Below, in pieces: positions 5,310-28,060 of a stretch of DNA of 64,000 bases; positions within the stretch are counted from its first letter, which is position 1, and the number at the start of each line of letters is the position of its first letter. Source of the stretch: a virus. The notes under the pieces were generated by a model. The model was not told the DNA's origin and did not search any database. It saw only the letters and a list, made by a program, of their open reading frames with translations. Where the stretch lies: positions 1 to 64,000 of the IMG/VR virus record IMGVR_UViG_3300033153_013547. One strand, given 5' to 3'. Position numbers and translations under genes: made by a program.

Positions 5310-5648
5310 CTACTTACCACCAAGATTCTTCTTGATTTTATCTATATCTAGATTGACGTTTTTCCTAACGTTATCTGGATTTTTATAAGCATTAGTTGCT
5401 GAAGTACCACCATAAAAACGGAGACTACATTCTTTGATTACCGATCCATCATCTGTCAACACAACCCTTACAAGATTACCACTCTTGAGTCGTTGCAAAC
5501 GTCCAGCCACAATATTGTTAACTGTTACTCTATTATTTTCAATTAACATAGCAGCTTCTTTCTCTTCCAACCCCATTTGGATCAGAATATCAACCATTTT
5601 GTACTGCTTGTTAGGATCACCCTTAATCTGCAATATATCTGTTGCCAT
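5310..5648 (-). CDS. S4-like RNA-binding domain protein, 112 aa
   Basis: Residues 17-62 read MVDILIQMGLEEKEAAMLIE, NNRVTVNNIVAGRLQRLKSG and NLVRVV, which fits the S4 RNA-binding alpha-L motif (a helix pair, then R-V-x-V-N, then a turn and beta strand). The remaining 50 residues are basic and probably disordered. It lies between the E1-side genes and dCMP deaminase. The S4 call is by pattern only; the RNA target is unknown. Confidence 0.75.
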   Translation of the reverse strand: MATDILQIKGDPNKQYKMVDILIQMGLEEKEAAMLIENNRVTVNNIVAGRLQRLKSGNLVRVVLTDDGSVIKECSLRFYGGTSATNAYKNPDNVRKNVNLDIDKIKKNLGGK

Positions 5649-5657
5649 AATACTCTC

Positions 5658-6725
5658 CTATAATTTATTTGAAACATAAAATAAAAAGTCTTCTGACTCT
5701 GAACAATCATCACATGGAGTAGGTAAAGAAAATGCTGGGAGAAATCTACAGACAACCATCAATACTGTTTTCATGCATGCAGGAATAGACAAACCAAGAA
5801 GTCCCCTCTCTAACATATATGAATATACAAGATGATTCTGAAATATCCTGTCTTTCATCTCAAAATGACTATCAAGTAAGGCTAATAATTGCCCTATTGT
5901 TGCAATTATCTTTTGATCAGTAATCCCAAACATATTTAGATATTTACCTAGATCAAGACTATGCAACACATAAGGACATCTATAGACAGGGGAAATCTGG
6001 ATACTGTTTGGCATGGCTGCAGCTATATGCAATAACAGATTAGACATATCAGTAGGAGCATCTGAAACAATTACAGACATATGTTGTAATATTTGATCAG
6101 CAACTCCTGTAATTTCACTCATAGGGAGCATGCATGACATAAATGCATGATCCGTATATGGTGCAACAGTAGCAGTAAACATAAAACGAGAACGTAATGG
6201 TGGCTCTATCATCAGATCTAAGGAACCATCTGCTCTTTCTCTCAACAACAAGTTATAGCAAGCATGCAATAAATGTGTATCACAATCTGATGATGAACAA
6301 GAATACACATTTCTTCCTTCTTTGTCTAATGATGTGGCAACCAATCTTGCACCACAAACACAATGATCAAGATCTAGAGGGGCTGATTTCTTAGTTTTCT
6401 TGAAGTCATACCTAACAGTATGCATTCTTGATCCAATCAAGTCTGGGAAAATATCTACACTTTTCAGTGCATCTATAGAAAAACCTATTTCGTTAGTCTT
6501 ACGACCGAATACTATTGTCTTACTTTTCAAAAAACACCTAACAGCAATAGAACCTATACTATAATAATAAACAAGTTCCCACGTGGTTCCAGTAAAACAG
6601 CCCCTTTTTTTATCTATCTCTTCAAGACTATCAATGATATCTGAGCTCATAATCCATGACACTTTTTCACCAAATATGTCAGTAAGATTAGGAGTTGTTG
6701 TGGTAGCAGGTAGTTCTTGTGTCAT
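5658..6725 (-). CDS. conserved hypothetical with zinc ribbon, next to E1-like gene
   Basis: The 355-residue protein carries one clear feature: a four-cysteine cluster CVCGARL...YSCSSSDCD near residues 121-150, probably a zinc ribbon. The C-terminal 150 residues are helical and contain a hydrophobic stretch around LLLHIAAAMPNS. The spacing of a beta-rich part, a four-Cys ribbon and a helical tail vaguely resembles the back half of NAD-dependent DNA ligase, but I cannot support that by sequence. It starts six bases after the ThiF-like gene ends, so it belongs to the Ub-like operon by position. Confidence 0.75.
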   Translation of the reverse strand: MTQELPATTTTPNLTDIFGEKVSWIMSSDIIDSLEEIDKKRGCFTGTTWELVYYYSIGSIAVRCFLKSKTIVFGRKTNEIGFSIDALKSVDIFPDLIGSRMHTVRYDFKKTKKSAPLDLDHCVCGARLVATSLDKEGRNVYSCSSSDCDTHLLHACYNLLLRERADGSLDLMIEPPLRSRFMFTATVAPYTDHAFMSCMLPMSEITGVADQILQHMSVIVSDAPTDMSNLLLHIAAAMPNSIQISPVYRCPYVLHSLDLGKYLNMFGITDQKIIATIGQLLALLDSHFEMKDRIFQNHLVYSYMLERGLLGLSIPACMKTVLMVVCRFLPAFSLPTPCDDCSESEDFLFYVSNKL

Positions 6726-6730
6726 TACTT

Positions 6731-7783
6731 CTATTTCTCAACCCCATTTTTACTGAATTTGCTAAAATTACCACGTTTCTTCAGATAATCAATACTTGCA
6801 ACTTCCTTAGAATAATTGTTTGCTACATCAAACCTCACCATCATAGTACTAAGTCCTGATGCCTTAAGATCTGCTTTGATCACAGACATTAGAAAATTCA
6901 TAATAGGTGGCACAGCAGTACTATTTACAAACAAAGACTGAGCTTCCTGGGCAGCCATGTTAGCACATGTTAAATCCTCAGTATCCTCATCTGTCATATC
7001 ACCAAATAAATCAAAAAATGTTGGTGTTCCTATGGAACAGGGAATAATAGTACCCTTTACATCAGTTAGATCAACTTCAGCTATAGGTTTATTTGGTGCA
7101 GTACATTTACCTATTACTTTCTTCAATTCACCATTCTTGGACAAAATAGTCTTGACTTCATCAAGACCATATCCTCCACCACCAACTGTTAGTATAACCT
7201 GTCCGTCAAACCTATTATTGCCAGAATCAATCCATACAGCAAATGGATTGACTTCATCAAGGTAGGATTGAATGATCTTCCTTGCACTGATCTTATCAAC
7301 ACAGCCTATTATAATAGTAGCATACTTGGGAGAGTTATTACACAATGCTTTTATATCATTAGCACTTTCTATGTATCTATCATAACTAGAAATAGAAATC
7401 CCAAGTGCTCTAGAGTATCTTGCAGCCAAAACTTGAGCCTTGTTTTTATCAACATCTGGCATGATGAAATTTTGCCGTCCAACATTCTTGGGTTCTACCA
7501 CATCTCCATCAACTAAAACCAAGTTGATTGATGCTTGATGAACACTGGAAAGAAACCCCCCTCCCTGTATCATAGAAATTAGCCTTGCAATTTCAGGTAC
7601 AAGTTTGCTACCAGTACCACCACAACCAACCACAATGATATTGGCAAAATAAAGATCATTTGTCCTGCATGAAACAGGAACAAATGGCTTTATTTTCATA
7701 GCCAACATTCCGTTATTAATATTGGTGCATAATGCATCTATAACATCATGGTTATTTTTTGGTGCTTCTTTCTTAGCAGACAA
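6731..7783 (-). CDS. ThiF/E1-like adenylyltransferase (PRTRC ThiF type)
   Basis: E1-superfamily enzyme expected to adenylate the C-terminus of the Ub-like protein at 10593-10895. Residues 48-60 give the nucleotide loop IIVVGCGGTGSK, 89-106 give LVLVDGDVVEPKNVGRQN (the Asp and Arg/Gln that position ATP and Mg), and GCVDKISARK follows at 160-169. The length (350) and loose C-terminal half suit the PRTRC-associated ThiF proteins rather than MoeB. The start is a TTG with a strong AAGGAGG six bases upstream. It follows the JAB gene by 18 bases, matching the gene order of known prokaryotic E1-E2-JAB cassettes. Confidence 0.9.
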   Translation of the reverse strand: MSAKKEAPKNNHDVIDALCTNINNGMLAMKIKPFVPVSCRTNDLYFANIIVVGCGGTGSKLVPEIARLISMIQGGGFLSSVHQASINLVLVDGDVVEPKNVGRQNFIMPDVDKNKAQVLAARYSRALGISISSYDRYIESANDIKALCNNSPKYATIIIGCVDKISARKIIQSYLDEVNPFAVWIDSGNNRFDGQVILTVGGGGYGLDEVKTILSKNGELKKVIGKCTAPNKPIAEVDLTDVKGTIIPCSIGTPTFFDLFGDMTDEDTEDLTCANMAAQEAQSLFVNSTAVPPIMNFLMSVIKADLKASGLSTMMVRFDVANNYSKEVASIDYLKKRGNFSKFSKNGVEK

Positions 7784-7801
7784 TTATGGCCTCCTTAGAC
7801 A

Positions 7802-8881
7802 CTATACCCCAGTATCTGTTACATGTAATATTTTAGACAATGCTTCTCTATCCTTTGGACTCATTTTATGCTCTAAAAGGGCAAAAGCCAATTCCATTGC
7901 TTCAGACCTTTCCATAAATTCATTAAGACTATAAGCAAACACCTTGATCTTGTCTAGATCAAGAGAAGCAACATCATGAGCCAGCAAAACAGGAGTACCT
8001 CTATTCTTGTATTTCTCAAAACTATTTTGTTGCTTCCAATATCTATCTAACAAACCAATTGCTTTATTATCTTTTGATAAACTTGTTGCTTGATCATTTG
8101 CCTTACTGTCCATCTGACGATCAAAATATCCATGGTGACCACTGACTACTGTGGCTTCGCCCTTGGTAACCCAAGCCTGAGGATAAGTGTCATCCATAGG
8201 TGGTCTATCGTCAAATATGTCCAAAAGATCCACAGATATTGCCTTACCACCTACCATAACGCGCAATCTTAGTTCGGGTTCTGGCAACATCACTCGACCT
8301 ATGACTCCATAAATTATATCATTTTTCTCGTCACTATCATCTATTCCACTCCAAAAAGCTCCCATTGAAGCAGTATGGCTATGAATTTCCATAACCTTTG
8401 GATACTTTCTGTTTAGCTCAGCCAAAGGTGGATCATCATAAACAATTGATCCACCAGATGCACTATGCTCTGGAACATGCATCATATATGATTCATTATC
8501 CTTATCATAATACACAAAAACAATAGCTTCAATGTGAGGAACAGATCTGAAATATGCTAGAGTTTTAGCTAATATTGTCTGAGGCAACTTGGGTATACAG
8601 AGCTGGAAAAACTTATCTGGCATTTCCACATCAGCAATACGAAGTGACTCACTAGGGACACCAAATATACCAATCAAATTCTTCCTAATCGTGAATATAC
8701 CATTAGCAGCAACAATGTAGCTTATTTGTTTAGTAATTTGGTCCATAGTAGGAACACCAAATATGAGATCAGTCATACCAATCTTGAATTTGGTGTTTTT
8801 GCTAATCTTTCCAAATAAGATATTGGCAAACCCACTATTATTCTGTTTCATGGGCACCTGCTTCTTTACTTTATCAGACAT
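7802..8881 (-). CDS. JAB/MPN metalloprotease (PRTRC protein A type)
   Basis: A zinc isopeptidase-like protein of 359 residues. The JAMM motif is complete: EIHSHTASMGAFWSGIDDSDE at residues 165-185, with His167, His169, Ser178 and Asp181 or Asp182; an upstream acidic residue lies in IEAIVFVYYDKDNE (118-130). JAB peptidases of prokaryotic Ub-like systems trim or remove the modifier. The N-terminal 110 residues resemble the extra domain of PRTRC protein A. GGAGG sits upstream of the ATG at 8881, which overlaps the E2-like gene stop, so translation is coupled. Confidence 0.9.
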   Translation of the reverse strand: MSDKVKKQVPMKQNNSGFANILFGKISKNTKFKIGMTDLIFGVPTMDQITKQISYIVAANGIFTIRKNLIGIFGVPSESLRIADVEMPDKFFQLCIPKLPQTILAKTLAYFRSVPHIEAIVFVYYDKDNESYMMHVPEHSASGGSIVYDDPPLAELNRKYPKVMEIHSHTASMGAFWSGIDDSDEKNDIIYGVIGRVMLPEPELRLRVMVGGKAISVDLLDIFDDRPPMDDTYPQAWVTKGEATVVSGHHGYFDRQMDSKANDQATSLSKDNKAIGLLDRYWKQQNSFEKYKNRGTPVLLAHDVASLDLDKIKVFAYSLNEFMERSEAMELAFALLEHKMSPKDREALSKILHVTDTGV

Positions 8882-9659
8882 TAAAAATTCCTCCAACAGT
8901 ATTTTTTGCAACATAGAGATCATTATAGGGAAATGGCTCATCTGTCACTTTAGCCATATCTTTAAACACATGCTGAATATTAGATGGATCAGTATATGAA
9001 GTAGTGATATCTTTATAATGAAGCGTAAGCCTATTATAGACCAAGTCACAGTTAAAAGCACTTGTTATAAACGATATCAACCTATCACCCACTTCGTATA
9101 GTTCGTAAGTAGTTTTAGGTATCTTAACACTACCCCAACATATACCACCATGATTAAATACATTGCCAAAAGGAAACATATACATCTTAGATTCTGGAGT
9201 AATTGGTTGTTTAGTTACATAGATTGACTCTTTTATGATCGTCTTTGTAGCAATATTATACTCTACTATGTAAAGCAAACTTGGCCACCTAATAACATAA
9301 GATTGAATATTATTGTAGTTCTGAAAAGTAATAGGCATCACTGTCTCTGGTCGGACTATACCAATCTTAGTACTTGATGCCCCTACAGCCACAAACTTGC
9401 AACCAGAGGGCAACAAAGGAAGGCTATAAGTATGAAACTTACCAAAAAATTCTAACAGAGCAGAAGTATAAACTACCTTGGTTGTTGACTTACCTGCCCT
9501 ATCCTTGAGGAGCAAACTGGCAATCCCTGGGTTTTTAGAATTCATTCCAATAATTATATCATAATCAGGGCTAAGTGTTCCTAAATGATCATGGACAGTC
9601 AACTTTCCCATCAAGGACTCTATTTCTTTATCCATTGCTTCATTTGTTTTTCTTGTCAT
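8874..9659 (-). CDS. prokaryotic E2 family D-like protein (PRTRC protein B type)
   Basis: The 261-residue protein carries MFPFGNVFNHGGICWGSVKI (residues 161-180), which fits the conserved P(F)xNV....G.(I/V)CWG core of the PRTRC protein B / prokaryotic E2-D family. The cysteine in this core (Cys174) is a candidate thioester site; that assignment is inference. The family was described in prokaryotic antecedents of ubiquitin signalling, always together with E1 and JAB genes, as here. It overlaps the JAB gene by 8 bases and the upstream gene by 20 bases. Confidence 0.85.
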   Translation of the reverse strand: MTRKTNEAMDKEIESLMGKLTVHDHLGTLSPDYDIIIGMNSKNPGIASLLLKDRAGKSTTKVVYTSALLEFFGKFHTYSLPLLPSGCKFVAVGASSTKIGIVRPETVMPITFQNYNNIQSYVIRWPSLLYIVEYNIATKTIIKESIYVTKQPITPESKMYMFPFGNVFNHGGICWGSVKIPKTTYELYEVGDRLISFITSAFNCDLVYNRLTLHYKDITTSYTDPSNIQHVFKDMAKVTDEPFPYNDLYVAKNTVGGIFNV

Positions 9660-10245
9660 GTTTCCTGTTACCTTTTAACATACGTAATAACGTAGATAAG
9701 ATTGTTACAAACATCATAAACATAGGCCAAATATTATCAGATTTAGACACAGTCAATGTTATAATAACCTTAGGATATGCTGAGCCAATGAAATAATGAC
9801 ATATTTCTCCTCCCTCTCTCCACAACTTTATGGTGGTGCCACTATACACTCTTGTATCTTTACTCAACTTAGAATACCACCATCTTTTTACCAGTTCAGC
9901 ATCCTCAGTAGCATGAAATGCAAAAGACACCACCAATCTCTGTGATCTATTACCAAACACATTTGCTGTAATAGAATCCTCAGGCAAAATACTATCATAT
10001 TTGGAAGATGATACAACACTCTTGACAGACCCAATGAGAATATTTATAACTGAGATTATATTATTTGCAAAATCAGATCCCTCAAAGATTGCATTGCCTC
10101 CACGTACTAATTCATCAGCAATGACAGAATCATCAATATCAAGATCATTTTTCATATAATACAAACAAGTTGATAACAATAATAACGAACGAATTGCATA
10201 AGACCGCTGATCCCTTGAAGTTTCCATGATATTACTAAACGACAT
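9640..10245 (-). CDS. hypothetical membrane-anchored protein in Ub-like operon, 201 aa
   Basis: It has a helical N-terminal half, a central beta part (LVVSFAFHATEDAELVKRWW) and one hydrophobic segment near the C-terminus (NIWPMFMMFVTILSTLLRML, about 170-189) followed by a very basic tail. This suggests a tail-anchored membrane protein. GGAGG lies 9 bases before the ATG. No family is recognised, but its position inside the cassette suggests a system-specific partner. Confidence 0.8.
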   Translation of the reverse strand: MSFSNIMETSRDQRSYAIRSLLLLSTCLYYMKNDLDIDDSVIADELVRGGNAIFEGSDFANNIISVINILIGSVKSVVSSSKYDSILPEDSITANVFGNRSQRLVVSFAFHATEDAELVKRWWYSKLSKDTRVYSGTTIKLWREGGEICHYFIGSAYPKVIITLTVSKSDNIWPMFMMFVTILSTLLRMLKGNRKHDKKNK

Positions 10246-10263
10246 AGATAAACTTCCTCCTAA

Positions 10264-10587
10264 CTAAAAATAATCTGGACATAATATAGGATCAGATGCA
10301 AGAGTAGTAGATAGTCTTTTAAACAAAGACGGATTGTCTAGGGGCTCAGTATCTAAGAACTGATCTATTACTGAATAGTCTGAAGAGGAAGCAACAAATT
10401 TCCACAACCATTCATTATTATCTCTTCCCAACCTTGTTGCAAGATTAATCAAACGATTGATAATATTAGGATTTGCTGGGAAATGCTCAATATAAGGAAT
10501 TAGGGTAATTAGCATTACAATCTCAGGGGCTATTGATGGCATAGCCTCAAGCATAGACAACTTATCTGAGATATCATTGTTATTCAT
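10264..10587 (-). CDS. hypothetical protein in Ub-like operon, 107 aa
   Basis: An all-helical small acidic protein lying five bases downstream of the Ub-like gene. It may be an adaptor or substrate of the conjugation system, but nothing in the sequence identifies it. It reads like a HEAT-type pair of helices (PEIVMLITLIPYIEHFPANP, IINRLINLATRLGRDNNEWL). Confidence 0.75.
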   Translation of the reverse strand: MNNNDISDKLSMLEAMPSIAPEIVMLITLIPYIEHFPANPNIINRLINLATRLGRDNNEWLWKFVASSSDYSVIDQFLDTEPLDNPSLFKRLSTTLASDPILCPDYF

Positions 10588-10592
10588 GACAA

Positions 10593-10895
10593 TTACCCTT
10601 TTGTCCCTGCAGTTTGATCAGCAGCCCATATATTGGCTCCTTCCTCTGTCTTTGTAAGCCTACTGTTACTAACACCAGGGAAATCTTCCTTAAAATAATC
10701 ACGTATTTCCTGCTCTGTTTTCAAATCTGCTGGAAAATAATGTTTCTCTGCATTGATATAGCAAACACCAACATCCATTTTTGGTGCACCTGCCTGAACA
10801 AAGGTATCATCAGCATCAGTACTTGCATCAGTACTTACATTATTACCCAAACTGATGCTGGGTATGTCAGAATCTCTTTCTCTTTTCTCATTCAT
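10593..10895 (-). CDS. ubiquitin-like protein (PRTRC protein C type)
   Basis: After a charged, disordered leader of about 40 residues, residues 41-90 read DVGVCYINAEKHYFPADLKT, EQEIRDYFKEDFPGVSNSRL and TKTEEGANIW. This fits the beta-beta-alpha-beta pattern and the conserved Y(F)xxxxPGL.NA.(v) core of PRTRC protein C, a beta-grasp Ub-like family (Prok_Ub). The protein ends in TAGTKG, so a terminal Gly is available for adenylation, although there is no Gly-Gly. It is the first gene of the cassette that contains E2-D, JAB and E1 homologues. Confidence 0.8.
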   Translation of the reverse strand: MNEKRERDSDIPSISLGNNVSTDASTDADDTFVQAGAPKMDVGVCYINAEKHYFPADLKTEQEIRDYFKEDFPGVSNSRLTKTEEGANIWAADQTAGTKG

Positions 10896-10920
10896 TTTTA
10901 ACCTCCAAGTGAATTATACA

Positions 10921-11607
10921 CTATACAGGCCACTGTCCTGTTTCACTATCACTTAGGCACTTAATACGCAATGCATCTTCTGTACCTGTACCATAAGCAC
11001 AAGGTACAAGCTCATCAAAAGGGTTAGTCTTTTCTGCCACCACTTTTTGCCCTGTCTCTTCATCAAATGATGGATCAGAATGCTGAGATGATTCTTCAGA
11101 TATAGATATTGTATAAAAATCCTCTACATTAGAATAACATATTGTATTACCTGAATTCCAATCATGCAGCACAAGATTATCACCTGGGCATAATTCTTGA
11201 TTATTACACAAGGAAACAAATAAACTAAGTCGTGGGTTACTACTGGTTGTATGATGACGTCTACTATATTCATGACACATATCAAACAAGTGATGAGAGA
11301 ACATGTGCTTAGTCTTCTCATAGAAAACAACTTCCATTACTGATTCTTCTATTTTAGGAACAAGAACATCAAGATCCTTACGAATATCTCGTAATCTAAC
11401 AGTCCTTACTGACTTGGGTTTATAAAAACACCCAGTGTCTATGCTTTCATCTTTTGCAGCAATAGCACAAAATAACATAGTATTTTTGTCTACAAGCTTG
11501 AGTTGATTACCAGGATGCACTTCTACTTCAATTGTAGTATTCATATGCAAAGAAGCATTACCAAAGAAACTGGCAGGAAATGGAACAGAAAAAACTATAT
11601 TCTCCAT
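10921..11607 (-). CDS. hypothetical protein between SbcC and Ub-like genes, 228 aa
   Basis: The N-terminal part is beta-rich (ENIVFSVPFPASFFGNASLH), the middle is helical with a His-rich stretch, and the end is acidic. I do not recognise the family. It could be a divergent extra component of the Ub-like system (known PRTRC cassettes carry proteins E and F of unknown function), but that is only by position. AAAGG lies 8 bases before the ATG. Confidence 0.75.
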   Translation of the reverse strand: MENIVFSVPFPASFFGNASLHMNTTIEVEVHPGNQLKLVDKNTMLFCAIAAKDESIDTGCFYKPKSVRTVRLRDIRKDLDVLVPKIEESVMEVVFYEKTKHMFSHHLFDMCHEYSRRHHTTSSNPRLSLFVSLCNNQELCPGDNLVLHDWNSGNTICYSNVEDFYTISISEESSQHSDPSFDEETGQKVVAEKTNPFDELVPCAYGTGTEDALRIKCLSDSETGQWPV

Positions 11608-11609
11608 GA

Positions 11610-13367
11610 CTAACACCTTTCAAATCTGATAGTGCTAACAGCACCACCATCTTGCCTCAGTTTTATAACACCATCAGCCAAAGCCAAATCTCTCATAGTA
11701 TGAGAAATAAAGATTACTTGATCAAACCCATCTTCTTCTGATATATGCTTAATTAGCTTCATCATCATATCAGACTTTTGATCATCAAGTTTGTCAAATG
11801 TCTCGTCTAAAACTAACATTCCAGCATCAATGCCTAGACTCATCATATATTTACAAAGTCCATATCTTATAGCCAATTGAAATGCACGAGATTCTCCACC
11901 AGAAAGATTTCTATACTCTATGACTTTACCCATATGAGAAGCCATAATAGCAATAGTTTCTTTCTTGCCACCAGTAGACAAAGGTTTTAGTGTCTCTATG
12001 GATACAGACATAGGCATATCTAACATAGACAACACATTGTTGGCATAGCCAGCAACAATAGAAATCATTTCATGTATAATATGAGCCTGGGCTCCATGCT
12101 TGCCCCAAGCCTCAACAAGCATAGTAAATAGTCTTTTAGACTCATTCAATTCTATCAGCTTAGGCTCAATAGCATGTAATTCAGCAGTAGATTTAGAAAC
12201 CTCTTTTATTGTAGCCTCAATGGATGCAATTCTCTTTATGATATCATCTCGTTTAACTGACCTGAACCCTGACAGATCATCAAGTTCTTTCTCAATTAGG
12301 CTGATCTTGTCTTCATAATTCTTGCATTCATTCACCTTACCAAGCCTTTGAGACATGCTAGTAAGAGACTTGAATTCTGCAATAGTTTTCTTATCTACAA
12401 ATTTCTCAAGTCTTTTGATTTCTTTGCTAATTCTCTCTTGCTTTAAATAATCAACAGCCAAGGGACATTGTTTAATTAAATCTTTTGACACTGCCAGACA
12501 AGGAATGGCATCATTATACTTAGTAGATTCTAAAAGATTATACAAATCAGCCAACTGCTTAGCCATTACCATTGGCTTGCTAGATAGTGATTTTTCTATT
12601 TCACTAAACTTAACAAATCTTTCATACTGCTCCTGCAGTTTGGTAAATTTAGACAAATCTGATCTCAACTTCTTCTGTTTGCTCTCTCTAAGTGAATCTA
12701 CTGCATTAGCATCAGACAAGTCTGACTGCAAAAGCAACAATTCTTCATTCAATTGACTGACATTAGCACTGATTATTTTTCTGCTGAGATATTCCTTTAG
12801 TTTTTCTTGTTCTTTAATCTCTTCATCTAACTTGGCTACTCTCACAGCAGCCAAATCAGATGCCATCTGTTGTTTGTCAAGATCTGCTATAGATGCTAGA
12901 AGATCTCTACGAGATTCTGGTCTTTCTTCACAAAGATCAAATTCTGTTCTCTGTGAGCTAAAAACACTGGCAATAAATGTCTTGTATGGCATTAGAATGG
13001 TAGATATTAGATTAGTTGCTTCGGAGGACTTGCTGCTTGTTAGTATTTCACCTGTGTCTATATCAGAGATGGAAACTTCTGATTCTTTGGTCTTTTTTAC
13101 TTTGCTAACTCTACGAGTAATCAATAAATTTCTTCCAGAGATGGTAAAACTTCCCTGGATAACAGATTGATCAGCACTCATAAAGTCATATAAAGAACCA
13201 AATCTTGAGGGAAACTTTCCATACAAGCAAGCTGCTATGCTTTCTGCTAAAAATGTCTTGCCAGAACCATTAGGTCCCAAGATGCAAAGACAATTACTAT
13301 CTGATAAATCAAGGTTTGCTTCCTTGAGCTTACCAAACTCTTTAAGAACAAGTTTATTGATTCTCAA
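11610..13367 (-). CDS. sbcC: SbcC/Rad50-like ATPase (T4 gp46 type)
   Basis: SMC-like ATPase of the SbcCD/Mre11-Rad50 nuclease, acting in double-strand end processing and recombination. Walker A is GPNGSGKT at residues 31-38. The C-terminal half has the ABC signature LSGGE followed by SRAFQLAIRYG, then Walker B MLVLDETFDKLDD about 40 residues later. Between them lies a short coiled coil (rich in E, K, L). At 585 residues it matches phage gp46 (about 560) and not bacterial SbcC (about 1,000). A CxxC hook is present only as a weak candidate. The partner nuclease is two genes upstream at 13602-14729. Confidence 0.92.
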   Translation of the reverse strand: MRINKLVLKEFGKLKEANLDLSDSNCLCILGPNGSGKTFLAESIAACLYGKFPSRFGSLYDFMSADQSVIQGSFTISGRNLLITRRVSKVKKTKESEVSISDIDTGEILTSSKSSEATNLISTILMPYKTFIASVFSSQRTEFDLCEERPESRRDLLASIADLDKQQMASDLAAVRVAKLDEEIKEQEKLKEYLSRKIISANVSQLNEELLLLQSDLSDANAVDSLRESKQKKLRSDLSKFTKLQEQYERFVKFSEIEKSLSSKPMVMAKQLADLYNLLESTKYNDAIPCLAVSKDLIKQCPLAVDYLKQERISKEIKRLEKFVDKKTIAEFKSLTSMSQRLGKVNECKNYEDKISLIEKELDDLSGFRSVKRDDIIKRIASIEATIKEVSKSTAELHAIEPKLIELNESKRLFTMLVEAWGKHGAQAHIIHEMISIVAGYANNVLSMLDMPMSVSIETLKPLSTGGKKETIAIMASHMGKVIEYRNLSGGESRAFQLAIRYGLCKYMMSLGIDAGMLVLDETFDKLDDQKSDMMMKLIKHISEEDGFDQVIFISHTMRDLALADGVIKLRQDGGAVSTIRFERC

Positions 13368-13559
13368 TTATCTACCCTCATAGAACTCATCCAGCTCAAG
13401 ATAATCTTCTAACTCTTTCATAGCCTTGAGATAGGCTTTACGTAACTTGTGAAACCTTGGATCGTCTATGTCATCAAACTCACTCCAACTTACAAAACAT
13501 CCTTCAAGACCTTTGCGTTCTATAATTTCACACACAGCTTGTCTATCTTCTTTTGTCAT
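13368..13559 (-). CDS. hypothetical protein between sbcD and sbcC, 63 aa
   Basis: A small acidic helical protein; its stop codon abuts the SbcC start codon. The sequence has a conserved-looking CFVSWSEFDDIDDPRFHKLR centre. The tight packing between the two nuclease subunit genes suggests a function linked to SbcCD, but no family is recognised. Confidence 0.75.
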   Translation of the reverse strand: MTKEDRQAVCEIIERKGLEGCFVSWSEFDDIDDPRFHKLRKAYLKAMKELEDYLELDEFYEGR

Positions 13560-13601
13560 GCTAATTACCTCTTCTTTCTATCTGTGCCCAGAACTTTTAC
13601 T

Positions 13602-14729
13602 CTATTGCTCCATCTCAGCCACAATTTCAGCAGCCATATTACTTAGCTTCTTCTTCTCAGACTTAGATATTTCATATTTGTCTTCCAAGACAGACAATGC
13701 TTGTTGTTCAAGTGACATAGATGTGAGACTCAATCTCTTCGATACTATAATCGTATCTTTGTTCAGCCTGATCTCAACAGCATCACCATATCTATCAGCC
13801 ACTTTCTTCCACTGCTCATTAGAATCTACATATACAATAAACCTATTATACCCTTCAGGAGGTATGTCAATCTTCTCATCAGATGACAATATTTTGACTT
13901 TACTTGTCTCTACTTCAACAAATCTTCTAACAATATTTTTCTTACTACTCACTCTAATCAGAACAAATCCAGTAGGCTTTCCTGAATCTGCTACAGAGTG
14001 ATGATACATTGCTCCAGAATAATAATCATCAGGAGTATGAATATGATTCATCATAATAATATGAGGATCAAAGGCAGCATTGATTTCATCAACAGACAAA
14101 ACCATTTTGTCTCTACTAACAATTTTACTGCCAACACTTGATCCTTCAAGTGTAAAATGTCCTATAAACATTTTGATGATATTAGATGAAGCATTGATAT
14201 GAACATCATTAGCAGCCAGCCCCATCCATTCTACCAGACTTTGCCTGGATCTTTTGTTCAGTTCTTCTTGTGTAATATCAGGCTCTATCTGGGCTATCCT
14301 ATCTCTAGCCAGGGTATTCCAGGGCATTGCCATAATAGCAATCTTTCTCTTGAAACCAAAATCTACATCATAAATAACAGAAGGTAAAGAAATCTTGAGT
14401 ATTCGAGGATGATTTGGTATAATATCTAACACTGAAAGATTGAAATCAGGATCAACATCATGGTTACCTGGCATCATAACACACCAGGCATCAGGATGAC
14501 TATCTAAGTAAGAAAACAAAGGACCATAAACACCATGGATCACCCTAAACGTAGATGTTTGCTTATCCCCAATATTAGTTGAATCAACAATATCTCCACC
14601 AATAACAATCAGATTACAATCAAACTCAGCAGCCTTCATCAATAGAAGTTCCCATGAATTTCTGCACATGTCTAGTCTCCTAGCAGTAAAATGAAGATCA
14701 GGCATGTGTGCTATTCTTAGAAACTCCAT
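13602..14729 (-). CDS. sbcD: SbcD/Mre11-like metallophosphoesterase nuclease (T4 gp47 type)
   Basis: Nuclease subunit partnering the SbcC-like ATPase. The calcineurin-type metal ligands are in order: PDLHF (Asp11, His13), LIVIGGDIVD (about 41-50), MMPGNHDVD (about 88-96), MFIGHFTLEG, and MMNHIHTPDDYY. The last 120 residues form the helical/beta capping and ATPase-binding region expected for this family. The length of 375 residues is normal. It is the first gene of the run sbcD, 63 aa, sbcC, 228 aa, Ub-like cassette. Confidence 0.93.
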   Translation of the reverse strand: MEFLRIAHMPDLHFTARRLDMCRNSWELLLMKAAEFDCNLIVIGGDIVDSTNIGDKQTSTFRVIHGVYGPLFSYLDSHPDAWCVMMPGNHDVDPDFNLSVLDIIPNHPRILKISLPSVIYDVDFGFKRKIAIMAMPWNTLARDRIAQIEPDITQEELNKRSRQSLVEWMGLAANDVHINASSNIIKMFIGHFTLEGSSVGSKIVSRDKMVLSVDEINAAFDPHIIMMNHIHTPDDYYSGAMYHHSVADSGKPTGFVLIRVSSKKNIVRRFVEVETSKVKILSSDEKIDIPPEGYNRFIVYVDSNEQWKKVADRYGDAVEIRLNKDTIIVSKRLSLTSMSLEQQALSVLEDKYEISKSEKKKLSNMAAEIVAEMEQ

Positions 14730-15846: not shown

Positions 15847-16277
15847 CCTCGCACCTCCAGCAATTCGGGATTATCGTGGATGTTGCCGATGATTTTCCAC
15901 CAGTTCTGACGCTTTATCATGTCGGTCTCGTCCCAATCGGCAAAAGCCATAGTGTCAAAGTATTTATGGTCATCAACACACTCAAGGGCAAATTGGGCAT
16001 TGCGATACACGACCACCAAGCATGGACGCTTTAGGTCTGTTTCGAGCATATCCCCCTCCCATATTTCGCTGCCGTCTCGGTCGCAGAGTCCGGTGTATTG
16101 GCCGACGGTTTCGGAGTCTACGGGAGTAAAATACCCCTTCATTATGTGCCAGACAACAGGCGGGGATTGAGATGGCCGAGTGCGACATATCAAATGTTCT
16201 CCGCCAAGTTCAACATAAAACCCATAAATCCACTCGCCATTATCAACGCGCTTACCTCTAAACTCACGCCTATCCAT
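15843..16277 (-). CDS. YopX family protein, higher-GC copy
   Basis: The 144-residue protein has the YopX pattern: REFRGKRVDNGEWIYGFYVE at the start, a mid block TVGQYTGLCDRDGSEIWEGD, and IIGNIHDNPELL at the end. YopX proteins are common in phages and prophages of Gram-positive bacteria and other hosts; their role is unknown. This copy is far richer in GC than those at 34292 and 43432, so it was probably acquired separately. Confidence 0.9.
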   Translation of the reverse strand: MDRREFRGKRVDNGEWIYGFYVELGGEHLICRTRPSQSPPVVWHIMKGYFTPVDSETVGQYTGLCDRDGSEIWEGDMLETDLKRPCLVVVYRNAQFALECVDDHKYFDTMAFADWDETDMIKRQNWWKIIGNIHDNPELLEVRG

Positions 16278-18607
16278 TACATACCTCTCTTGCCTAGTGG
16301 CACAGTAGTAAACTTGTTTCCATCCATATAACCACGAGATATAGAGAATTTGTTTCCATTTTTGCTTCTACCCCTGAAATCTACTGTTACTATGTCTCCT
16401 TCCACAATATCGTTAGAAACTATTGCTCCGGCGACAACGTTAGTTATATCTTTCTGGATCGTTCTCCGCAAAGGACGAGCACCGAATGCTGCATCGTATC
16501 CCCTTTCTGCTAACTCCCTGCAAGCATTGTCAGTAACAACAAGCTTAATTTCTTGTTCAGCCAATCTCTCTACAAGTTTATCAACTTGCAAACAAGTAAT
16601 ATCAATAGCATGTTCCCTTGTCAATGGGTGAAAAACAATGACCTCATCAATCCTATTCAGGAACTCAGGTCTTAGTATTGTTTTCAACCTATTTTTGACT
16701 TTGTTCACCATGATAGGATAACCATCAGCCAATTGCCTATCATTTTTGCCCATTGAAAACTCAGCAATTTCACTAGAAGCAATGTTACTGGTCATAACCA
16801 TTACTACATTTCTAAAATTAACTGTTACACCATGAGAATCAGTAAGCCTACCATCATCTAATACCTGTAATAATACATTCCAGACATCAGGGTGTGCTTT
16901 TTCTATTTCATCAAATAACACAATGCTGTATGGCTTCCTTCTAACTGCTTCTGTTAGTTGCCCACCATTATCATATCCAACATAACCTGGGGGTGATCCA
17001 ACAAGCCTTGTTGCAGAAAACCTTTCTCCATACTCACTCATATCTATTCTAACAACAGCGTCCCTGTTGTTGAATAGAAAGCCTGCTAAAACCTTTACAA
17101 GTTCAGTTTTCCCTACACCTGTTGGTCCACAGAACAGAAAACTACCAAGAGGTCTATCAGGATCTGACAATTTTGCTTTTGCCCTACGAATAGTCTCTGA
17201 CACAGCAGAAACTGCTTGAACCTGTCCAATCAGTTCTTTGTGTAACTCATCTTCCATGTGGATATATTTGTCACTTTCCTCAACAGAAAGGTTGGTCAAA
17301 GGAATTCCAGTCCACATGGAAACAACTTCTGCTATATCTTCTATACCAACAATGCTATCTTCTCTTATGTTTTCAGAATGATCAATCTTGACTCTCGAAC
17401 AAGCCTCATCAAGCAGATCAATAGCCTTATCTGGCAAAAATCTGCCCGTTACATAACGAGCTGATAGCTCTGCTGCTGCCTTTATTGCCTGAGAATCTAC
17501 TACTACTCCATGGTGATTTTCATACTTAGACACTATTCCATTTAATATTTCTTCTGTCTGTTCAATGCTTGGTTCATCTACAGAAATAGGTTGAAACCTT
17601 CTCTCCAGAGCAGCATCCTTTTCTATATGCTTTCTATACTCGTCAGCAGTAGTAGCACCAATACATTGTAACTCACCACGAGCAAGCACTGGTTTCAACA
17701 TGCTTGCAGCATCAACACCACCATCGCCAGCACCCATGGAAGCCAGGCTGTGTATTTCATCTATAAATAAAATAATTTGACGATTTTTGGATCTAATTTC
17801 ACTGATAATAACCTTGAGTCTCCTCTCAAGTTCTCCTCTCATAGAACTTCCAGCCATCAATCCCCCAAGATCAAGAGATAGAATCTTCTTGTTAGCCAAC
17901 ATGGGTGCTGTACCTTCAGCTATTCTTATAGCAAGTCCTTCAACTATTGCTGTTTTGCCTGTACCAGGCTTGCCAATCAAAACAGGGTTATTTTTGAATC
18001 TTCTAACCAATATTTGTATAGCCCTGTCCATTTCTTGTGTTCTACCAATGATAGGATCTATCTCTCCTCTTAGAGCCTTATCAGTAAGATCTGTTGTAAA
18101 TATTTCAAGCAGATTATCCTGATCATCATCCTTATTCACATCTTTTGTAACAGCAAACCTGTTTTGCATTTTAGCAAAAGATTTTTCTACCTGTGCTTTG
18201 CTAATTCCCAAGGTATTTCTGAATGATGCTCCATGAGTACGATCCATAAGTAGAGCCAAAAATACGTGATCAACTCGAATATTGTTGCTGTGGTTATTGT
18301 TCATGTATTTTTCTGCACGCTTGAAAATACTTACCACTTTTGGAGAAAAGAACACATCACTTGGGGCAAAAGATTCATCAGTACCCTCATTATCAATAAG
18401 TGTAGATGCAACTTCTATTACATCTTTAGCATTTACACCCATTTCACGAAGCATTGCCATAGCTTCTGAATCTTCCACAGATATGAGTCCATACAATAAG
18501 TCTTTTGGGAACATCTGATTCAAGCCTAACTCAGCAAGTTGAGTCTTGCTGATTCCTATGGCTTTGACAAGTTTGTCAGCAAACAATTGCCAATCAAGTT
18601 TGTACAT
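16277..18607 (-). CDS. ClpA/ClpC-type AAA+ unfoldase
   Basis: Hsp100 protein with an N-terminal Clp repeat domain (residues 1-150), a first AAA+ module (Walker A GKPGTGKT at 212-219, Walker B ILFIDEIHS at 279-287, arginine finger region LERRFQ) and a second (Walker A GPTGVGKT at 494-501, then VLFDEIEKAHPDV, SNIAS, FLNRID). It lacks the 120-residue ClpB middle domain, so it is ClpA/ClpC-like. At the place of the ClpP-docking IGF/LGF loop it has FSMGKNDRQ, so pairing with host ClpP is uncertain. It may unfold targets for the phage peptidases encoded in this window (33726 and 57950); that is inference. Confidence 0.93.
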   Translation of the reverse strand: MYKLDWQLFADKLVKAIGISKTQLAELGLNQMFPKDLLYGLISVEDSEAMAMLREMGVNAKDVIEVASTLIDNEGTDESFAPSDVFFSPKVVSIFKRAEKYMNNNHSNNIRVDHVFLALLMDRTHGASFRNTLGISKAQVEKSFAKMQNRFAVTKDVNKDDDQDNLLEIFTTDLTDKALRGEIDPIIGRTQEMDRAIQILVRRFKNNPVLIGKPGTGKTAIVEGLAIRIAEGTAPMLANKKILSLDLGGLMAGSSMRGELERRLKVIISEIRSKNRQIILFIDEIHSLASMGAGDGGVDAASMLKPVLARGELQCIGATTADEYRKHIEKDAALERRFQPISVDEPSIEQTEEILNGIVSKYENHHGVVVDSQAIKAAAELSARYVTGRFLPDKAIDLLDEACSRVKIDHSENIREDSIVGIEDIAEVVSMWTGIPLTNLSVEESDKYIHMEDELHKELIGQVQAVSAVSETIRRAKAKLSDPDRPLGSFLFCGPTGVGKTELVKVLAGFLFNNRDAVVRIDMSEYGERFSATRLVGSPPGYVGYDNGGQLTEAVRRKPYSIVLFDEIEKAHPDVWNVLLQVLDDGRLTDSHGVTVNFRNVVMVMTSNIASSEIAEFSMGKNDRQLADGYPIMVNKVKNRLKTILRPEFLNRIDEVIVFHPLTREHAIDITCLQVDKLVERLAEQEIKLVVTDNACRELAERGYDAAFGARPLRRTIQKDITNVVAGAIVSNDIVEGDIVTVDFRGRSKNGNKFSISRGYMDGNKFTTVPLGKRGM

Positions 18608-22432: not shown

Positions 22433-24094
22433 CTAATAATCAAGATCAACTACTATATCATCCTTCTCTGACTCTAACATTTTCTTTACATGTCGATCAA
22501 TAAGATCTTCACTAAATTTTTCTTTTTCTTCCAGAACATTATACACATGATGTTCTATGCTTTCCTGACCATCTTGGAGAACTGTTTTCAACATATAATA
22601 ACTAACTCTGTTGAGCTGTCCTGGTCTATGAAATCTTGCCAAAAATTGGGACCAACTTCCCATTCTAAAATTAGCACCATAGATCACAACAGTATTACAA
22701 CAAACAAGATTGATACTCTCACCAGCATCTATTTGCATTACCAGAAACTGATTGCCATTAGGATCTTGAAAATCAGATATAACATTTGTTGCTTCTTGTG
22801 CTGTAAGACCACCATATAATTTGTTGCAGTTTAGTTTATCAGCCAATTCTTCCACTGTTTTTCTAAAGTGAGCTGCCACAACAACTTTGTTGCCAGATTC
22901 TTTAGCAGAATCCACAATATCCAGCAGAAATTCTAACTTGGCAGAATCCTCTATGCTTTGTCCAGCAGCAATACCATCACATATTTGCATAAGATCCATA
23001 TTATTTGATGGTTTGTGTTCAGCAGCAAGCACAGCACACTTAGTTACATAAAGATCATTAAGCCTTTTGCTTGCCATACAATCAATAGGAATAAATAATT
23101 GTTCAGGTAAATCCAAGCACTGATCTTTTGTAAATCTGATACCATAATCAAATAATATAGATCTTAGCTCTGGTATGTTTTTGAACCCTACCAGAACTTT
23201 ATGCCTATGAGGTCTATACCTTTGGACCATAACACAATATTTTTGGGTAAATTGCCAATAACTTTTACCTAATATATTTTTGTCAAGAAATGACAACTGA
23301 CCATACAGATCCATATACTTACTTACAACAGGAGTGCCTGTCATAAGCATTTTATATGGAGCCTTTAGTCTTCTGATAGTTTCAGCATAACTTAGCTTCT
23401 TACCTTTGGTTCTAATTTTGTAATTCTTGATATGATGAGCTTCATCTATTATAATCATATCAAAAGTGTCAAATGCACCAAAACCTATACCATCAGCAGG
23501 AACATAACCTGCTGATTCATAGTTAGTAATATAAAACAATGCATCTTTTTTGAAGGCTGCTTGTTTTTGCTGTGGAGAACCAGATGCTATAGAATAACTA
23601 TGAAACCTTTCAGGCAACCACTTCTCAATTTCTTTTACCCAGGTCTCAATCATTGCTTTTTTGGGTGAGAAGATCAATACTTTATGGACAGCACCTTGCT
23701 CTACCCTATATTTTACAATTTCAAGAACAACCCTTGTTTTTGCAGTGCCTTGTTCAGCAAAAATAGCACTCTTGCTTTTTAGCAAGCAAAACTGATACAT
23801 AATATTCTGATGATCAAAAGCAGGAGGATCACCTTCAATCACTGGCTTATTGTGATCTAAGTGATATGTGATTTCAAAAAGATCTTCATCAAGGTAATTT
23901 GCTAATTTTTCTTTTGCCCATTCACATTTAGCAATAGGAAGATACCAATATTTACCAACAGGCTCATATCTGGCTTTTATGGACTTCATAACTGAAATAT
24001 ACTCATCAGCCCAGGGAAAATACATGACACATCTATCTTCATCTGGAACAATTGTAAGTCCAAACCTGTCCTTAGGCAGGGGAATGCTAATCAT
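22433..24094 (-). CDS. SNF2-family DNA translocase/helicase
   Basis: Superfamily 2 ATPase with an N-terminal HARP-like segment (residues 1-75, with YEPVGKYWYLP). Motif I is EQGTAKTR (114-121), motif II IIIDEAHHIK, motif III MLMTGTPV, and the C-terminal lobe has AAHFRKTVEELADKL, then motif VI QFLARFHRPGQ. It is expected to translocate on double-stranded DNA and remodel forks or protein-DNA complexes. It overlaps the beta-subunit gene by 8 bases, so the polymerase and helicase may act together. Confidence 0.93.
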   Translation of the reverse strand: MISIPLPKDRFGLTIVPDEDRCVMYFPWADEYISVMKSIKARYEPVGKYWYLPIAKCEWAKEKLANYLDEDLFEITYHLDHNKPVIEGDPPAFDHQNIMYQFCLLKSKSAIFAEQGTAKTRVVLEIVKYRVEQGAVHKVLIFSPKKAMIETWVKEIEKWLPERFHSYSIASGSPQQKQAAFKKDALFYITNYESAGYVPADGIGFGAFDTFDMIIIDEAHHIKNYKIRTKGKKLSYAETIRRLKAPYKMLMTGTPVVSKYMDLYGQLSFLDKNILGKSYWQFTQKYCVMVQRYRPHRHKVLVGFKNIPELRSILFDYGIRFTKDQCLDLPEQLFIPIDCMASKRLNDLYVTKCAVLAAEHKPSNNMDLMQICDGIAAGQSIEDSAKLEFLLDIVDSAKESGNKVVVAAHFRKTVEELADKLNCNKLYGGLTAQEATNVISDFQDPNGNQFLVMQIDAGESINLVCCNTVVIYGANFRMGSWSQFLARFHRPGQLNRVSYYMLKTVLQDGQESIEHHVYNVLEEKEKFSEDLIDRHVKKMLESEKDDIVVDLDY

Positions 24095-25739
24095 TGATCT
24101 GATTCCTTGCTATAGCAGCCTCTTTATACTTAGGAGGCAATATTTTTGCATATTCTGATAGTGCTTCTAATCCTGTTACATATTTAGACATATACATCAA
24201 GACATCTGGCACATCATATAACGTTGATAGAATCATTATATCTGCTAATCCTAATCTTACACCACTCATCTCTCTAAGATCAGGAGACATAACTCTAGCA
24301 GGACCTGTGGCTGACAAACTATCAACAGCATGATTGTTTTGCCTAGTCATGAACACAAGACCATTGATACAATCAATTTCTTGCCCTTTATGAAATACCT
24401 TAGGACAATCTATTTCAGCAATCTTGCTTATACTATACTCACCAGTAAATTGCCTCACAAATAACCTTTTACCTGGGGCAATTCTATGAGATAGGACAGC
24501 TTCTATGAGCTGTCCATAATTTCTTCTGCCCTTATCTGGACCCTTGTAGATGGAAAATGGGTTGATGATCATGTCAATTCTCCTGCCCAGATCATCCACA
24601 GGCATCCAGTCATCAGGCATGATCTTCACAGTGCCTTTTTGACCACTTCTGTTAGACAATTTATCTCCATCTTCTAACTTGTAAGCAATAAATAGTTCAA
24701 TAGAAACAACCTTATGAATAGAATTCATATATGGTTTTTCTATTTCACTCACTTTATCAACAAATGCAAATGTATTAGCATCATAAAAATGTGCTTTGCA
24801 TTCGTTTTCACTATATGCACCTGCATAGGTGCATAATTGCTGACCATGTTCTACTATTTCTCCAGGTTTTACTAAGGAACTTGTGTTATGCCACATAAGA
24901 GACTTTCTCTTGAAACAACAAAATTTACCAGCAACTGATCTTGATACAACAATAGTGTCTTCAAATGTTTCTGCTATTGAAAAGAATGCTACTCTAACAT
25001 TCAGTCCAGGTGGATCAGGTATATGTCCTGTATCTGCTGTGGTAATTAAGGGTAACTCACTATGAACCAAATCAGTAGCATGTAACATGTTAGAAACAAT
25101 TATTGGTATTCTTCCTAAATTTGTATGTTCTATAAAGGGAATTTTCCTACTAACCTTAGAAAGCCTTCTACTATTAGATGGATCATTATTGTTATCCACC
25201 AAGAAATTAACTAGTCCTATCTTGTCTCCCATACTTGTAGCCAGAGTGTCTAAAATCTTTATAGATTGTATCCCTACTCTAAAATCATAATCTTGTGAAG
25301 GAGCAAGATTCTTTTCAGAATGAACCAAGACTCTATCCTTCATAACTGCTCTGTACAAAGCATTACCATAACCAAGAGGCTCAGTATTGATAGACATGTC
25401 TAGCATTGATTGAAACATGGATGGCCTTATGTCATATCCAAATTTGAGCCTATTCATGTTAAAATCTCCTACAGCTCTTGCCAATCTCATTTCTGCATAT
25501 TGTACTGGATCTACTAATATTCCTCCTATAAAATGAAACATAGGAATTCTAGACACACCATTATGTACTATATGTCCATCATCATACAATCTTGGTATGA
25601 TCAAAGTAACATTTAGTTCTGCATAATTAAATGATGCTAACGCTTTATCTTCTTCTTCCAGAATCTTGATATCAGATGAGCCAACAAAAATTTTGGGCAG
25701 AGAATATGGATTTACCAGGTATCTATGTTTTATACTCAT
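24087..25739 (-). CDS. RNA polymerase beta subunit, C-terminal catalytic part, divergent
   Basis: The 550-residue protein carries diagnostic beta-subunit blocks: GLNVRVAFFSIAETFEDTIV (residues 245-264, cf. NVLVAFMP...FEDAI), KLEDGDKLSNRSGQKGT (354-370, the GDKxxxRHGNKG block that contacts the catalytic site) and DMIINPFSIYKG... NYGQLIE. The N-terminal lobes of bacterial beta are missing or unrecognisable. It corresponds to the C-terminal beta parts of split jumbo-phage polymerases. GGGGAGGGGC precedes the ATG at 25739. It follows the beta' part, the reverse of the bacterial rpoB-rpoC order. Confidence 0.92.
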   Translation of the reverse strand: MSIKHRYLVNPYSLPKIFVGSSDIKILEEEDKALASFNYAELNVTLIIPRLYDDGHIVHNGVSRIPMFHFIGGILVDPVQYAEMRLARAVGDFNMNRLKFGYDIRPSMFQSMLDMSINTEPLGYGNALYRAVMKDRVLVHSEKNLAPSQDYDFRVGIQSIKILDTLATSMGDKIGLVNFLVDNNNDPSNSRRLSKVSRKIPFIEHTNLGRIPIIVSNMLHATDLVHSELPLITTADTGHIPDPPGLNVRVAFFSIAETFEDTIVVSRSVAGKFCCFKRKSLMWHNTSSLVKPGEIVEHGQQLCTYAGAYSENECKAHFYDANTFAFVDKVSEIEKPYMNSIHKVVSIELFIAYKLEDGDKLSNRSGQKGTVKIMPDDWMPVDDLGRRIDMIINPFSIYKGPDKGRRNYGQLIEAVLSHRIAPGKRLFVRQFTGEYSISKIAEIDCPKVFHKGQEIDCINGLVFMTRQNNHAVDSLSATGPARVMSPDLREMSGVRLGLADIMILSTLYDVPDVLMYMSKYVTGLEALSEYAKILPPKYKEAAIARNQIND

Positions 25740-27342: not shown

Positions 27343-28060
27343 TATTACCTTCTTTACCAAAAATAACATGAAGATATTCACATGGCACAATAATGTTTGT
27401 ATCTTTCATGTTTCGTCTAGTAATATGTTCACCAGCACCAGACAAATCAATTTGATTATGTGTCTTCACAATATAGGCACTCTTATCACCAAGGTGTGCT
27501 GTAGCCTTGATTTCGGGCGTAACCCCCTCATGAACGATCAATCTCTTCATTTCTTTTCTGATAGACTCGTATATCCTCGTCCAGGAGACAAAGCCCGAAT
27601 ACTCAAATTTATTGTTCACCTCAAATACATAAAACCTCTCCTGTCCTGTGTCTAGCCAATAAGCATCCCTATGTAGCCATGTTAGCCTTTCTCCTGTTAA
27701 ATGCCCCCTAGCATTTATAATAGAACCAGTTGGCCATAATTTGCCACTGTTACTAATTACTTGTTGCACAGACAGACCACGAAAACATCCTTGCTCTACA
27801 CGCACAATGAATGATTCTAACTTGTGATCTTGTAATACTACGGGTTGTGGAATAAATGAGAATTTAGGCTTTAATCCTTCAAAATCTCTGTCTAATATAG
27901 CATACTTAAGATATGATGGTAAATAAGCATGCCTAATATGGTTGGCTAATCCACCAGGACTTACAAAAAAAGATATGAGAATATCTGTTAAATCATCCCT
28001 AACATCTGCTATACATGCTGCCTTACCATAACCTTGGTATGCTTTTACTAAAACTTCCAT
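27335..28060 (-). CDS. hypothetical protein at head of RNA polymerase gene run, 241 aa
   Basis: A soluble protein of unknown family, overlapping the beta' gene by 8 bases. Because it is cotranscribed with beta' and beta it may be an extra, highly divergent polymerase subunit or factor, as in jumbo-phage polymerases that need a fifth subunit; nothing in the sequence proves that. GGAGACAAGT precedes the ATG at 28060. Confidence 0.75.
   Translation of the reverse strand: MEVLVKAYQGYGKAACIADVRDDLTDILISFFVSPGGLANHIRHAYLPSYLKYAILDRDFEGLKPKFSFIPQPVVLQDHKLESFIVRVEQGCFRGLSVQQVISNSGKLWPTGSIINARGHLTGERLTWLHRDAYWLDTGQERFYVFEVNNKFEYSGFVSWTRIYESIRKEMKRLIVHEGVTPEIKATAHLGDKSAYIVKTHNQIDLSGAGEHITRRNMKDTNIIVPCEYLHVIFGKEGNNA

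Follow-up and report, generated by a model that had tools for sequence, protein, structure and literature searches.

What does a virus tag with a ubiquitin-like (Ub-like) protein, and why? The question is raised by the occurrence in phages of a complete set of E1, E2, JAB peptidase and Ub-like genes, Ub-like conjugation in bacteria now being known chiefly as an anti-phage defence. Such a set is described here from bases 1-64000 of a 261,124-bp IMG/VR virus record (IMGVR_UViG_3300033153_013547), a 64-kb stretch referred to below as the window, from a virus that resembles a large bacteriophage. The cassette genes are packed closely on the minus strand at about 6.7-10.9 kb. Their content, family relationships, conserved catalytic residues and conserved order are established, and, as read from the sequence, they probably encode a complete and functional Ub-like conjugation cycle of the E2-D type, most likely one by which proteins of the phage or of its host are reversibly tagged during infection. 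The original prediction that a large phage carries an E2-D/PRTRC-like conjugation cassette is well supported by the E1, E2 and JAB families, the Ub profile, the invariant residues and the recurrence of the cassette; every gene that it listed is present on the minus strand, at coordinates that are exact or very near.

The modifier and its enzymes

From the modifier to the E1, the cassette comprises the following genes (lengths in amino acids, aa):

10593..10895, minus strand: Ub-like modifier, 100 aa (leave-one-out profile, E=1.3e-7)
10264..10587, minus strand: 107-aa protein, "small" slot between Ub and E2 (position only)
9640..10245, minus strand: 201-aa protein, "large" slot between Ub and E2 (position only; C-terminal hydrophobic helix)
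8874..9659, minus strand: E2-like conjugating enzyme, Prok-E2_D (PF14460, 1e-8)
7802..8881, minus strand: JAB metallopeptidase, PRTRC_A-like (TIGR03735, 5.9e-13)
6731..7783, minus strand: E1/ThiF adenylating enzyme (ThiF PF00899, 1.3e-14; TIGR03736, 1.4e-31)

The Ub-like protein is not recognised by the Pfam, NCBIfam and PHROGs profile libraries that were applied to the window proteins. A profile iterated from three phage sequences and fetched loci, from which the window was excluded, nevertheless matched it as the only one of 574 stop-to-stop open reading frames (ORFs) in the window. Its Ub domain covers approximately residues 41-100, and the protein terminates exactly at ...AGTKG, with no C-terminal extension to remove; K99 and G100 are invariant in 38-42 sequences. 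An AlphaFold model built from 38 sequences (predicted local distance difference test, pLDDT, 74) displays the order bb-aa-bb expected for a small beta-grasp domain, so that this fold is likely on the strength of the model.

The ThiF match of the E1 exceeds the Pfam cut-off, and the enzyme is also matched by the NCBIfam model PRTRC_ThiF (TIGR03736). Conserved columns include the GxGGT loop, an NxxRQNF motif and Cys273, the candidate thioester cysteine; all three motifs are found in 70 of 75 loci. The nucleotide loop, GCGGTG in the window, is kept in a conserved column and is indeed intact, as had been proposed. The E2 gene product likewise exceeds the Pfam cut-off for its family, and P163, N166 and C174 do not vary across 45-50 sequences. 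Between Asn and Cys the spacing is x7, as in the HPN...C motif of human UBE2D2 (checked against PDB sequences), and the model of the E2 (pLDDT 81) consists of a beta-meander followed by the loop P163..N166-x7-C174 and by helices.

The JAB peptidase is recognised by the NCBIfam model PRTRC_A (TIGR03735), the Pfam JAB/Prok-JAB match (0.022) falling under the cut-off. Its start is more likely at 8881 (359 aa), with GGAGG upstream, than at 8941; residue numbers follow the longer ORF 7802-8941. The catalytic residues E138, H187, H189, S198 and D201 are all kept. The profile searches proposed by the original prediction succeeded above cut-off for ThiF and Prok-E2_D, but the JAB and PRTRC models gave matches below cut-off or none.

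Taken together, these features suggest a cycle in which the E1 would adenylate the C-terminal Gly100 of the modifier and then hold it as a thioester, with Cys273 as the candidate residue. The tag would next move to Cys174 of the E2 and from there onto an amine of a phage or host protein, and the JAB peptidase would take it off again. Since the modifier already ends at Gly100, JAB would act here as a deconjugase rather than as a precursor-maturing enzyme; the tandem-Ub precursors of sister phages, by contrast, would have to be processed. By their position, the 107- and 201-aa proteins are proposed partners or specificity factors.

Recurrence and variation in other viruses

Relatives were collected by tblastn, by an IMG/VR scan with an E1 alignment (145 stretches confirmed, 80 kept) and by a second scan with a JAB alignment (40 stretches). 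The tblastn relatives comprise Bacillus phage KLEB27-3, Vibrio phages D69, D181 and D148, Salmonella phage Arash, Acinetobacter phage ME3, Burkholderia phage BgVeeders33 and a faecal element. All four core parts occur in 74 of the 88 non-redundant E1-bearing loci, the window included, and the order Ub - E2 - JAB - E1 is found in nearly all complete loci. The four core parts thus recur in 73 other viral or phage loci with few departures from this order; a search for the gene order in other phages had been suggested by the original prediction. Among the IMG/VR contigs there may be plasmids wrongly filed as viruses; a large-terminase-like gene, read by eye, lies in the fetched flank of about 25 loci. 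For the ThiF and SbcC of the window, IMG/VR yielded no close relatives. In an E1+JAB tree the window pairs with L110 (support 0.87); deeper support is poor, and the tree is given little weight.

Tandem Ub domains, two to six in number, occur in 14 loci, with modifier termini conserved at GTKG. The poly-ubiquitin-like genes include those of L048 (4328-5407, six domains), L059 (5619-6725, five), L002 (3796-4503, four), L103 (5889-6641, four) and L003 (5412-6203, three); their repeats mostly end in GTKG, and in GVKG in L002. Two similar but separate Ub-like genes (6425-6616 and 6690-6875) stand in tandem upstream of the E2 gene in L024.

These observations also bear on an alternative in which the modifier would be a sulfur carrier of the ThiS/MoaD type, which the E1 thiocarboxylates for metabolite or tRNA modification. 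The E1 does belong to the ThiF family and also matches ThiF/MoeB models, and the modifier is small with a C-terminal glycine. This terminus is KG rather than GG, however, an E2 with invariant Cys and Asn accompanies a JAB in almost every locus, no rhodanese domain was matched in the Pfam and NCBIfam scans, and tandem Ub precursors in sister phages suit a modifier better. E2-bearing operons are, moreover, kept apart from sulfur-transfer operons by Iyer et al. 2006 (PMC1779556). Sulfur transfer is thus unlikely, and conjugation to proteins is the preferred reading.

The slot between the Ub and E2 genes is conserved in about 60 loci and usually holds one or two genes; elsewhere these are often one of ~75-110 aa and one of ~200-560 aa. 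The 107- and 201-aa genes of the window, which appear to be fast-evolving, fit this slot by position only. In one group of loci with a single slot gene, the Ub protein continues beyond GTKG into a C-terminal extension, which often measures about 80 aa. This arrangement is seen in L015 (7121-7699) and similar gut-type loci and in L007 (5776-6165), from which the separate small slot gene is mostly absent; as judged from their sequences, the extended proteins look like Ub-partner fusions for cleavage by JAB. The tail anchor ascribed to the 201-aa protein is unproven, its hydropathy maximum being 1.71 as compared with 1.68 for one slot protein from another phage. The proposal of three unknown proteins in the cassette holds for the 107- and 201-aa proteins, which fill the conserved slot; a 228-aa protein encoded upstream of the modifier is without a counterpart and need not belong.

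Cultured carriers of the cassette, namely Arash, KLEB27-3, D69 and ME3, make the question of what a virus tags directly testable. They share the order E2-JAB-E1 with a Ub-like gene upstream (one Ub domain in Arash, three in D69, four in KLEB27-3 and one in ME3), whereas their flanking genes are unlike those of the window and SbcC is distant (ME3) or undetected. Unlike that of the window, the JAB gene of ME3 contains a group I intron that interrupts it. The particle proteome of Arash lists Gp246 (E1, five unique peptides), Gp247 (JAB, three), Gp248 (E2, two) and Gp249 (small slot, five) among 116 proteins that include nucleotide-metabolism enzymes (PMC10585845). Gp251 as annotated shares sequence with the Ub ORF in a different frame, so that its detection gives no certain information on the modifier.

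Several points weigh against a complete and working cycle. Foldseek comparison of the Ub model with the PDB gave nothing significant (weak matches include protein G and Ras-binding domains), and the E2 model gave no significant PDB match either; a PDB profile search for solved relatives of E2, JAB and Ub yielded none that was convincing. The structure predictions proposed originally were thus of limited information value, returning the bb-aa-bb order and the E2 arrangement without a significant PDB match. In the E2, the classical HPN motif is without its His. Comparison of the 107- and 201-aa proteins with slot proteins of other cassettes by hhalign revealed no homology, controls scoring alike. 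The Arash listing shows expression and does not prove virion incorporation, since enzymes of nucleotide metabolism are listed as well. Finally, the JAMM motif of the window reads HSH-x8-SxxD, one residue more than in the canonical form EXnHS/THX7SXXD (PMC300881), so that the motif is intact with respect to its catalytic residues but not to its spacing.

Among 71 loci scored, x7 spacing is found in 64, x8 only in the window and L040, and neither in five, in four of which the gene is interrupted. The interruptions fall at the HSH motif, after ...DIH or ...DIHSH, in L005 (5736-8846, phage ME3), L032 (7475-9917), L033 (8249-9919) and L037 (7475-9917). The ME3 insert holds a group I intron at the Rfam gathering threshold; the inserts of L032, L033 and L037 have no Rfam match. 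The rare x8 spacing could be taken as a sign that the cassette is partly degenerate, with E1 and E2 acting and JAB impaired to give one-way tagging, or that the whole set is decaying. This is improbable: all cassette genes are open and most are preceded by sequences resembling ribosome-binding sites, the five catalytic residues are retained, the spacing is common to L040, and a modifier ending in glycine requires no maturation. Reversible tagging, with JAB as the deconjugase, accordingly remains the favoured interpretation of the window cassette.

SbcCD and other neighbours

The genes adjoining the cassette are the following:

13602..14729, minus strand: SbcD/gp47-like Mre11-type nuclease, neighbour (Metallophos, 8.7e-7; phrog_100, 1.7e-10)
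13368..13559, minus strand: 63-aa protein, neighbour (phrog_17752, 1.1e-15)
11610..13367, minus strand: SbcC/gp46-like Rad50-type ATPase, neighbour (phrog_77, 3.1e-48)
10921..11607, minus strand: 228-aa orphan between SbcC and Ub (no convincing family match)
5658..6725, minus strand: 355-aa protein with a zinc-ribbon-like cluster (sequence read directly)

The original prediction placed SbcCD and the cassette in one transcription unit. Co-direction and close packing agree with this, but they are all that speaks for it. Promoter and terminator patterns in the cassette region gave no more matches than chance, and almost all genes of the window lie on the same strand, in a compact co-directional layout throughout. 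It was further proposed that the tag might regulate the Mre11/Rad50-like nuclease or DNA-end processing, cassette and SbcCD forming a functional unit. In favour of such a unit, the genes follow one another on one strand within about 8 kb, and in L008 and L051, two related gut-type elements, genes for a Rad52-like protein and a Rad50-like ATPase lie next to the E2 gene. When SbcC was searched for in the records of 64 other cassette loci (50 + 14), however, it was convincing in only four. Six of the first 50 records reached the reporting threshold, with convincing SbcC in three (ME3, L024 and L051), and the further 14 records yielded one (L125). The distance to the cassette is about 68 kb in ME3, about 35 kb in L024 and about 18 kb in L125; the exception is L051, where the E2 gene and a Rad50-like ATPase are about 3 kb apart. 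SbcC and SbcD are, in addition, described as near-universal among jumbo phages (Iyer et al. 2021, PMC7824862). Their presence in the window is therefore expected, and their adjacency should carry little information; in other cassette-bearing viruses SbcC mostly goes undetected or lies at a distance. The co-directional layout extends to the whole window, tail and baseplate genes border the cassette instead in Arash-like phages, and no SbcD partner was identified next to the ATPases of L008 and L051. A conserved association was thus rejected, the DNA-end or DNA-repair reading of the cassette is unsupported, and a functional unit with SbcCD appears very unlikely; SbcCD is most likely a mere neighbour in a region of phage DNA metabolism. 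Also unlikely is a reading in which many tailed phages run their own full Ub-like conjugation cycle, some of them with poly-ubiquitin-like precursors, to modify proteins of their own or of the host while infecting it, and in which the targets here could include the adjacent SbcCD, which, if true, would mean viral tagging control of a recombination nuclease.

The window SbcC (11610-13367) has a short central region without a CxxC zinc-hook motif, only CLAVSKDLIKQC. The E2 gene of L008 (5882-9844) and of L051 (13629-19676) precedes a Rad52-like gene and one for a ~630-aa Rad50-like ATPase; the gene beside the L051 ATPase resembles the Rad52-like gene of L008. A DNA methylase-like gene lies near this set in both, and a beta-clamp gene as well in L008.

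Two further proteins flank the cassette, of which neither the 355-aa nor the 228-aa one has a convincing library family match or a relative in the fetched cassette loci. The 355-aa gene begins 5 nucleotides after the E1 gene, and its product carries a CxC...CxxxxC cluster; it is possibly an adaptor, its cassette membership being unproven. The 228-aa orphan probably stands outside the cassette. That it might correspond to the gene following SbcC in other phages was rejected, the genes in that position in BM15 and ME3 showing no similarity to it. A 112-aa protein (5310-5648), encoded between the gene of the 355-aa protein and that of a dCMP deaminase, has no PHROG match and resembles, by eye, an S4-type RNA-binding domain. 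About 1.5 kb upstream of SbcD, the window encodes a ClpA-like ATPase of 776 aa (16277-18607; phrog_4871, 6e-238) with no obvious ClpP-binding IGF/IGL loop, and at 24087-27390 an adjoining gene pair resembles pieces of the beta subunit of a phage multisubunit RNA polymerase. In L092 (2823-20552), which comes from a 188-kb viral contig, a complete cassette has GroEL-, ClpP- and RecA-like genes on its flanks, and L028 shows a similar set. ClpP is found near the cassette in L092, L028 and L019, and was considered as a general companion and rejected, being present in just 8 of 33 records and not found in the window's record.

Relation to known conjugation systems

The cassette had been called PRTRC-type. 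Like PRTRC systems, it is matched by the PRTRC_ThiF, PRTRC_A and PRTRC_B models, each under its curated cut-off (109.7 against 144.75 bits, 48.8 against 101.8 bits and, at 4.4e-8, 32.8 against 131.45 bits, respectively). The PRTRC_C modifier has no match in the 261-kb record even at E<=1, nor does ParB_N, for which controls matched, in a record that may be a fragment; the PRTRC_D model (TIGR03739) matches neither the record nor the control genomes. The modifier end GTKG is shared with BgVeeders33, a Burkholderia phage whose cassette is PRTRC-like. Strict PRTRC membership fails because of the sub-cut-off matches and the absence of PRTRC_C and ParB from the record, so that E2-D/PRTRC-like is the description that stands; this affects the name and not the mechanism.

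By gene content, the cassette is the E2-D operon type given as row 6d by Iyer et al. 2006 (Genome Biol 7:R60, PMC1779556). Both have a Ub-like protein, a JAB with an N-terminal extension, an E1-like protein, and an E2-like protein with the Cys and without the classical His; the rapidly diverging, alpha-helical extra protein of row 6d would have its counterpart, by position, in the slot genes. In contrast to row 6d, the window cassette is phage-borne, has two separate slot genes and shows no ParB in the record. The row-6d E2 is described as having an absolutely conserved His C-terminal to the Cys (PMC1779556). In the alignment of the viral set, no invariant His column follows the E2 Cys; ...AFNCDL in the window E2 corresponds to ...RFTHPN in the Burkholderia phage relative, and the row-6d His is not evident.

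Searches of the open-access literature, which leaves out most subscription journals and bioRxiv, gave no paper on phage-encoded cassettes of the E2-D type. In a survey of jumbo phages (PMC7824862), Ubl, JAB, UBC and ThiF are without a text match, and ubiquitin comes up only in connection with eukaryotic viruses and in the title of a reference. The window cassette is thus a further member of an already known kind of operon, and it is the distribution of this kind in phages, with an order conserved across dozens of divergent viral contigs, that is of interest and apparently little described.

Conjugation of a Ub-like protein or of cGAS by an E1 and an E2, together with a deconjugase, is known in bacteria from the Bil (BilABCD) and CBASS Cap2/Cap3 systems, both tied to the conflict between phages and bacteria. 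These systems serve bacteria as a defence against phages and differ in E2 class and domain layout, whereas the cassette described here is borne by the virus itself.

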